A stretch of 39,408 nt of DNA from an uncultured Pelagibacteraceae bacterium (GTDB lineage: Bacteria > Pseudomonadota > Alphaproteobacteria > Pelagibacterales > Pelagibacteraceae), in the NCBI GenBank assembly GCA_902531885.1, contig CACAFZ010000006.1, positions 1-39,408 on the forward strand, in the 5' to 3' direction. The notes below the pieces were generated by a model. That model was not told the DNA's origin. It saw nothing but the letters and a program-made list of their open reading frames with translations, and did no database searches. Positions 9,670 to 14,431 of this stretch are shown piece after piece. Positions within the stretch are counted from its first letter, which is position 1; every line of letters begins with the position of its first letter. Position numbers and translations under genes: made by a program.

Positions 9670-10806
9670 CTAATTTTTTTTACTAGGTATTTCCTCTTTT
9701 GATTCTACTTTTTCTTTTTCTATAGGATTACCCTCAATTTTCTTTGAAATTACACCAGCTTTTTCTCTTATTGCCATTTCAATTTCAGCTGCTGCTTTTG
9801 GATTTTGTTCAAGGTATAGTTTTGCATTTTCTCTACCTTGTCCAATTTTTTCGCCTTTGTACGCATACCAAGCGCCTGATTTTTCAACTATATCGGCTTT
9901 GGCCCCTAAATCTATTAATTCACCAGATTTGCTTATTCCTTTTCCATACATCAAATCAAATTCAACAACTTTAAAAGGAGGTGATACTTTGTTTTTAACC
10001 ACTTTAACTCTTGTTGTGTTTCCAATAATGCTCTCTTTTTCTTTTATTGCGCCAATTCTTCTAATATCCATTCTAACTGACGAGTAAAATTTTAGAGCAT
10101 TTCCTCCCGATGTTGTTTCTGGACTTCCAAACATTACGCCTATTTTCATTCTTATTTGATTAATAAAAATAACCATTGTATTTGTTCGAGAAATTGAGCT
10201 TGTCAATTTTCTTAGTGCTTGACTCATTAGTCTCGATTGAAGTCCAACATGATGATCTCCCATTTCACCTTCTATTTCAGCTCTTGGTGTTAAGGCAGCC
10301 ACTGAGTCAACAACCAAAACTGAAACTGACCCTGACTTAATTAATGTATCTGCTATTTCTAAAGCTTGCTCACCTGTATCCGGTTGGGAGATTAATAATT
10401 CTTCTGTATCTACGCCTAATTTTTTTGCATAAACTGGATCTAATGCATGTTCTGCATCAATAAATCCACAGATTCCACCCGTTTTTTGGGCCTCAGCAAC
10501 AACTTGTAATGCAAGTGTCGTTTTACCAGAAGATTCTGGACCATAGATTTCTACAATCCTTCCTTTTGGTAAACCACCAATTCCAAGTGCTAAGTCCAAA
10601 CTCAAAGAACCTGTTGAAACAGATTCAATGTCCATAGCTTTTTGTTGTCCAAGCTTCATTACAGAACCTTTTCCAAAATTATCCGTGATTTGGCTGATTG
10701 CTGCTTCTAAAGCTTTATTTTTTTCTTTATTTTCCAATTCTTGATTTTTTGTAGATTTAACTACTTTTAAGTTGTTTTTAGTCATTTTTTGCCTTTTTTT
10801 TTTCAT
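9670..10806 (-). CDS. recA: Recombinase RecA
   Basis: [25 protein letters not shown] Walker [28 protein letters not shown]; true start may be internal ATG at 10785 (MTKNNLKVV). Confidence 0.97.
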
Positions 10807-10835
10807 TTTTTAACATTCGAATCATACTTTTAAAT

Positions 10836-10850
10836 GTACACATTTTGTTC
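10836..10850. promoter_or_regulatory. Possible LexA-like site upstream of recA
   Basis: GTAC-ACATTTT-GTTC; one mismatch from alphaproteobacterial GTTC-N7-GTTC; 12/15 identical to the umuD site. Confidence 0.5.
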
Positions 10851-12570: not shown

Positions 12571-12684
12571 TTTGAACCTTTTATTAACTATATTTTTTCA
12601 CTTGTTGGTATATATTTCTTACAAACTACAACTGGTAAGAGTTATCCACAATAGCGCAAAATATGGTTTAAATGTTCACCTTTT

Positions 12685-12706
12685 GATTCACTTTCGATTC
12701 ACTTTC
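12685..12706. repeat. Tandem 11-bp direct repeat GATTCACTTTC x2
   Basis: GATTCACTTTCGATTCACTTTC, preceded by a degenerate related unit (TTCACCTTTT). Confidence 0.85.
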
Positions 12707-12726
12707 AGACTCAAAATACAACCTAT

Positions 12727-12753
12727 TTGACACTAGTGAATAACTCATATAAT
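12727..12753 (+). promoter_or_regulatory. Sigma70-type promoter for umuDC
   Basis: TTGACA (12727-12732), 15-bp spacer, TATAAT (12748-12753). Confidence 0.65.
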
Positions 12754-12758
12754 AATAA

Positions 12759-12773
12759 GAACAAAATAAGAAC
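12759..12773. promoter_or_regulatory. Predicted LexA (SOS) operator of umuDC
   Basis: GAAC-AAAATAA-GAAC, exact match to reverse complement of alphaproteobacterial GTTC-N7-GTTC; overlaps expected transcription start. Confidence 0.75.
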
Positions 12774-12777
12774 ATTT

Positions 12778-13173
12778 ATGAGACTTACTATTCCTTACTA
12801 TTTACATAAAGCTGGAGCAGGTTTTCCATCGCCTGCTACTGACTATATCGAAGAGGATATCGATCTTAATGTTCATTTAATCAAAAATGTTCCAGCAACT
12901 TTCATTATAAGAGTTCAGGGTAAATCAATGACTGATATTGGAATTAATGATGGTGATTTACTAGTTGTAGACAAAAGCTTAAATCCTAAAAATTTTTCAA
13001 CAGTGATTGCAAACGTTCACGATGAATTGGTTGTTAAAAGTTTTGTAAAATACGAGGGTAAAAAATTTTTAACATCTGGGTCTAAAAAATTTGAAGATAG
13101 GATTTTAATTAATGAAGAAGAAGATGTTTTTATTTGGGGAGTTGTAACTTATGTCATCCATTCAACATACTAG
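12778..13173 (+). CDS. umuD: UmuD-like S24 autoprotease subunit of translesion polymerase V
   Basis: [21 protein letters not shown] (Ala-Gly cleavage context), GKSM Ser, ELVVKSF Lys; start moved to ATG 12778 because upstream part of ORF is promoter/operator. Confidence 0.9.
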
Positions 13174-14431
13174 AAAAATAGCCTTAATAGATTGTAATTC
13201 TTTTTACGTATCTTGTGAAAGATTATTTAATCCTAAAATAAGAAAAAAGCCTGTTGTCGTATTATCCAATAATGATGGTTGTATCATTTCAAGATCAAAT
13301 GAGGCAAAAGCTTTAGGTATTAAAATGGGAGAGCCCTATTTTAAAGAAAAAGAAGTTATCATTAAAAATGATGTTCAGGTTTTTTCATCAAACTATTCCT
13401 TATACGGTGATATATCAAGAAGAGTAATGAGAACTCTTAAACGTTTTAATTCTGATATAGAAGTTTACTCAATTGATGAAGCATTTTTAGATTTGTCAAA
13501 TTTTTCTGATAATGAAATTGAAAATGTAGGACATGAAATTAGAAGTATAGTTTTAAAATGGACTGGTATACCAACAAGCATTGGTATCGCAAAAACTAAA
13601 ACTTTAAGCAAAGTTGCAAATCATATTGCTAAAAAAAAACAATCTGGAGTTGTCAGTTTGATAGGAATTGAAAACGTTGATCCTATATTAGAAAAAGTAG
13701 AAATTAATGATGTATGGGGAGTTGGTAAACAACTAACAAAATTTTATCATCAAAATGGAGTCTATAACGCTAAACAATTAAAAAATAAATCTAATACATG
13801 GATCAAAAAAAGTTCTAATGTTTTAAGTTCAAGAACTGCAATGGAGCTTAAAGGTATTCCTTGTATTGATCTTGAAACAAAAAGTTCTAAAAGAAAAAGT
13901 TGTGTTGTGTCACGCTCATTTGGGCAAAAAGTAGAAAAATACCAGGAATTAAAAGAAGCAATTGTGGGTTATGCCTTAAATGCTTCAGAAAAAATTAGAT
14001 CTGAGTCTTTAGTTGCAAAATCAATAACTGTTTTTGTTAGAACAAGCCCTTTTCAAAATAGATACGGCTTTTATTCAAATTCAAAAACAATTGATTTACC
14101 AATGACTACAAACAACAGCATTGAGATAGTTAAAGCGGCACTTAATGCATTAGAAGCTATTTTTAAAAATGGTTATCGTTATCAAAAAGCAGGGATTATG
14201 TTATCTCATTTGTCTGAGTCTACTAATAGCAAAAATTTATTTTCTTCAGAAAGAGATGAAAAAATAAATAGTTTAATGAAATCTATAGATAATACTAACT
14301 ATAGATATGGCAGATCAACTTTAAGTCTTGCGAGTGCTGGTGTCCATAAAAGATGGAGTTCGAGAAGACAGCATTATTCTAAAATAGATACGGCCAATTT
14401 TTATTCTTTACCAACAATAAAAACTACTTAA
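13151..14431 (+). CDS. umuC: UmuC-like Y-family DNA polymerase V catalytic subunit
   Basis: [67 protein letters not shown]. Confidence 0.95.

Follow-up and report, generated by a model that had tools for sequence, protein, structure and literature searches.

A predicted LexA switch at umuDC

The 51 bases that precede ATG 12778 in the 39,408-nt stretch of SAR11 (Pelagibacteraceae) DNA analysed here (the window) very probably hold the promoter and the LexA operator of a umuDC operon, whose first product, UmuD, begins at that ATG. On the + strand, TTGACA (12727-12732) is followed by 15 bp, TATAAT (12748-12753), GAAC (12759-12762), AAAATAA, a second GAAC (12770-12773), ATTT and ATG (12778-12780). 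GAAC-AAAATAA-GAAC (12759-12773, +), which reads GTTC-N7-GTTC on the other strand, is the predicted LexA box. The mechanical ORF call starts at TTG 12727, in frame with ATG 12778 and 17 codons upstream of it. The first-pass annotation had instead read this TTG as the start of TTGACA, the first 17 'residues' as likely promoter and operator DNA and the GAAC repeat, four bases before the ATG, as a LexA box, and the comparison with relatives supports this reading.

umuD (12778-13173, + strand) encodes 131 aa from the ATG (Pfam Peptidase_S24, E 1.7e-22) and has the S24 peptidase domain with both the cleavage region and the Ser/Lys dyad; its alignment with E. coli UmuD includes GFPSPA and G-x-SM. umuC (13151-14431, +), with Pfam IMS, IMS_C and DUF4113 domains, overlaps the end of umuD, as befits an operon. 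The window also has an outer-membrane efflux gene and a GFA-family gene. Started at the ATG, which is aligned in relatives, the protein shows similarity to E. coli UmuD beginning at residue 3, in agreement with the start at 12778 proposed earlier.

A protein search of 118 genomes of the family gave matches in 110, some of them to LexA only, and 61 umuD loci from many genera were read for a promoter box. An exact GAAC-N7-GAAC is present in 60 of these 61 promoters, with all eight repeat bases invariant across the 60, and the box of the remaining locus (L067) has one mismatch. The core has the form GAACAAA, then A/T-rich letters, then GAAC. In a second family of the order, GAACAAAACAAGAAC stands 17 nt before the ATG at all seven umuD loci. 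Within the first family, 0, 3, 4, 7 or 9 nt separate the box from the aligned ATG, and because this distance varies, the frame of the box differs between loci: it would be read as NKIRT at some and as EQNKN at others. Moreover, an in-frame stop lies within the 17 upstream codons at 37 of the 61 loci. Codon conservation of the 17 'residues' was looked for and is absent. Given the differing frames and the stops, the umuD box is conserved as DNA, not as codons. Since the ATG-started alignment points the same way, the 17-residue extension is, on this comparative evidence, outside UmuD.

The motif alone would not have sufficed for this conclusion. GTTC-N7-GTTC has one match in the window, where shuffled sequences average 0.57 and give at least one in 41 of 100 cases; in the whole source genome there are nine matches versus 11 for a reversed control pattern. 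Thus, neither the window nor the genome counts show an excess of GTTC-N7-GTTC over control, and motif enrichment was discarded as proof of a LexA box. With counts at the control level, chance could account for the motif by itself, but not for where it lies or for its conservation in relatives. A genome-wide scan of the order gives roughly one exact GAACAAAAYAAGAAC per genome; where the position of umuD is known, most of these matches lie there. One might still suppose that TTG 12727 is the true start, that the 17 residues belong to UmuD and that the hexamers and the repeated GAAC arose by accident in A/T-rich DNA. Besides the chance expectation just given, this is favoured by the frame being open in the window's species and in L019-L021 (LTLLYNSCTNKNKTRTL). 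It is nevertheless extremely improbable in view of the stops in most relatives, the differing frames of the box and the ATG aligned at all loci; in addition, lexA is preceded by the same box, there too outside the gene.

In most relatives, a TTGAC-type hexamer lies 17-18 bp 5' of a TATAAA-like hexamer; the best pairs of hexamers in 59 distinct upstream regions are mostly 17 bp apart (18 bp in nine), and in the commonest promoter classes the -10 element ends 0-3 nt before GAAC. The closest relatives sharing TTGACA have TATTAA (L022) or TACTAA/ACTAAT (L019) in the 17-18-bp register. The window has a perfect TATAAT at 15 bp (12748), overlapped by TAATAA at 17 bp (12750) and AATAAT at 18 bp (12751), so that its -10 region spans 12748-12756 (+) and the exact -10 hexamer is ambiguous. 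Across these regions, the TTGACA-15-TATAAT pairing is specific to the window's species. As relatives prefer the 17-18-bp spacer, TATAAT was probably not the ancestral -10; the earlier description of the promoter as TTGACA, 15 bp and TATAAT thus holds for the letters, though probably not for TATAAT as the ancestral element. Whichever -10 is used, the predicted transcription start falls within the box (about 12759-12763), which would give a umuD leader of roughly 15-19 nt with no evident Shine-Dalgarno sequence. As part of TTGACA (12727-12732, +), the predicted -35 element, TTG 12727 would be no start codon.

These features suggest a simple switch. RNA polymerase would use TTGACA together with the A/T-rich -10 region at 12748-12756 and start at about 12759-12763, and LexA bound to GAAC-N7-GAAC would block transcription by covering the start site along with the short leader. 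Upon DNA damage, RecA filaments would provoke LexA self-cleavage, and UmuD and UmuC would then be made, along with the products of lexA, recA and probably nrdA. UmuD itself or another S24-type repressor might be imagined to bind the box in place of LexA, as UmuDAb, a UmuD relative in Acinetobacter, is reported to repress umuDC promoters. The 131-aa UmuD of the window, however, has a short N-terminal arm, no DNA-binding domain and Peptidase_S24 as its only Pfam match, and relatives possess a full LexA whose promoter carries the same box. We therefore give such a repressor almost no credence and retain LexA as the predicted ligand.

A putative small SOS regulon

A LexA gene had been sought as a prerequisite of this reading, and the source genome, an 875-kb assembly that is 71% complete, does contain one on a contig other than that of the window (G000:C25:2-634; LexA_DNA_bind, E 3.4e-9). 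Its N-terminus is cut by the contig end, which makes its own promoter unreadable. In relatives within the family, GAAC-N7-GAAC precedes lexA at 33 of 33 loci, 19-40 nt before the first ATG of the ORF, or at a greater distance where the ATG chosen was an internal one (L078). A box of the same type is also found in the lexA promoters of second-family loci. In genus g2 (L054-L057), umuD and lexA share a strand and are about 2 kb apart, each gene with its own LexA box.

recA is present in the window itself (9670-10806, - strand; Pfam RecA, E 1.5e-142) and is preceded, at a distance of about 30 bp, by a putative degenerate LexA box, GAACAAAATGTGTAC (10836-10850, -), with one mismatch. All 10 recA loci read, which represent six genera and have divergent flanks, carry the corresponding one-mismatch box GAAC-N7-GTAC, RGAACAAAATRTGTACAT. 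Just 3' of the degenerate box lies a GANTC site (10819-10823), again present at all 10 recA loci (L199-L208) and always followed by G on the recA strand, as GATTCG or GAGTCG; a link to CcrM is possible.

Most exact boxes are intragenic, both in the source genome and in four complete relatives. In the latter, umuD, lexA and nrdA/phosphomannomutase are the recognisable repair or dNTP genes with an intergenic box. The box between the divergent nrdA and phosphomannomutase genes occurs in all five genomes (L010, at 1319-1333 of contig C30 in the source genome, and L169, L172, L186 and L197), suggesting that ribonucleotide reductase probably belongs to the SAR11 SOS regulon. The genome search for GTTC-N7-GTTC proposed in the first-pass annotation did turn up a further intergenic site, even though it revealed no overall excess. 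Boxes at an aspS-like gene, named by eye (G003:906736 and G043:209479), were rejected as regulon members; they extend across the point where the coding region begins. The SOS regulon that can be recovered from promoter boxes would thus be very small: lexA, recA, umuDC and probably nrdA.

Two published SAR11 transcriptomes agree with this predicted regulon. During HTVC027P infection, recA, lexA, umuD, umuC and nrdAB rise (PMC12753301), and in late iron stress lexA, recA and mucA cluster (PMC2864753). Other causes may lie behind nrd induction during infection. The available portions of these expression papers name no operator (PMC12753301, PMC2864753), and our literature search found no SAR11 LexA motif, although such an absence proves little.

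In E. coli, LexA operators are of the CTG-N10-CAG type. The SAR11 operator, unlike that of E. coli umuDC, is of the alphaproteobacterial type, and judging by its repeat the umuD box is a member of an already known class of LexA boxes, for which the Caulobacter motif is GTTCN7GTTC (PMC12700426). As in other alphaproteobacterial LexA promoters, e.g. those of Caulobacter, there is a GTTC-N7-GTTC direct repeat, one box per promoter, that overlaps or adjoins the promoter of the SOS gene, and both LexA and RecA are present. The SAR11 boxes differ from their alphaproteobacterial counterparts in the fixed A/T core (AAAAYAA at umuD, TTTTRTA at lexA) and in their very short distance to the start codon, which can be as little as 0 nt, and the recovered regulon differs in its very small size. 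Like umuDC/mucAB (DNA polymerase V), the operon has two genes under predicted SOS control, one for an S24 protease whose cleavage region is A-G-FPSPA and one for a Y-family polymerase, except that its UmuD starts about 10 residues later than the E. coli protein. The mechanism of the predicted umuDC switch is the expected arrangement. Two things are gained: a start-codon error that automated pipelines might make again in SAR11 genomes is corrected, and a very small SOS regulon is defined by sequence for a group that is among the most abundant bacteria in the sea.

The adjoining RF01827 element

Divergent from umuD and outside the LexA switch lies a match to Rfam RF01827, the SAR11_0636 'sRNA' (12634-12723, - strand; 89.6 bits versus a gathering score of 67); this match identifies the DNA as that of a SAR11 bacterium. 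Meyer et al. 2009 placed the SAR11_0636 element beside an SOS repressor/S24 peptidase gene, with LexA unmentioned in the text (PMC2704228). The element starts only 36 bp from the box, and any RF01827 promoter would overlap the umuD promoter, so the box might in principle mainly control RF01827 or its transcript, with umuD a mere neighbour. Genomes in which the two are separated make this very unlikely. None of the 20 RF01827 copies located away from umuD has a LexA box within 300 bp, whereas umuD keeps its box in genera where RF01827 has moved (L039, L041-L045, L054-L057) and also in the second family, whose listed genomes have no RF01827 match. Because the moved copies have none, the box belongs to umuD rather than RF01827, and RF01827 was dismissed as a second LexA target. 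Where the two adjoin, LexA might still affect the divergent transcript.

Several properties suggest that RF01827 is a DNA element rather than an sRNA. Although its score is above the Rfam gathering score, the helices tested lack the compensatory changes of a folded RNA: among 60 distinct copies (columns 9-56), two-sided change is confined to, at most, a lone cell at pair 9-56, and six helix pairs never vary. Folding energies of four copies are near those of shuffles (z 0.15, -1.45, 0.05 and -1.65). At the same time, the element carries three GANTC sites 11-12 bp apart (12685, 12696 and 12708 in the window); in the 60 distinct copies, their spacing is invariant, only N varies (three cases), and GAACA is invariant as well. 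The window has no other GANTC triple within 30 bp, and sampling of the complete genome G026 gave just one besides it, inside a malic-enzyme-like ORF identified by eye. A DnaA box, TGTGGATA, is found in 60 of 64 full-length distinct copies, that of the window being TTATCCACA (12642-12650), and a CcrM homolog is present in SAR11 (PMC3973325). We tentatively propose, as one possibility, that RF01827 is a DNA site with three GANTC sites for CcrM methylation and a DnaA box; in most SAR11, one intergenic region would then house both an SOS operator and a site controlling replication or the cell cycle. An origin of replication, which GANTC sites and a DnaA box could also bring to mind, was rejected, as the element does not coincide with the GC-skew switch: sampled skew in G026 shows no switch at 622 kb, and its minimum falls at about 360-410 kb, in the vicinity of dnaA (399 kb).

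The distribution of the element shows further peculiarities. In nine Pelagibacter assemblies RF01827 was not found. Eight of them (G156, G171, G194, G195, G201, G204, G205 and G216; completeness 93-96%) also lack umuD, lexA being found, and in the ninth (G187) umuD is at a contig end; the joint absence in the eight may reflect a shared loss or an assembly gap. Genomes of genus g4 (G018, G004, G036, G052 and others) carry RF01827 twice. In G018, the weaker copy is in the ancestral neighbourhood, some 3 kb from recA, the stronger one is elsewhere, and umuD has moved away from both.
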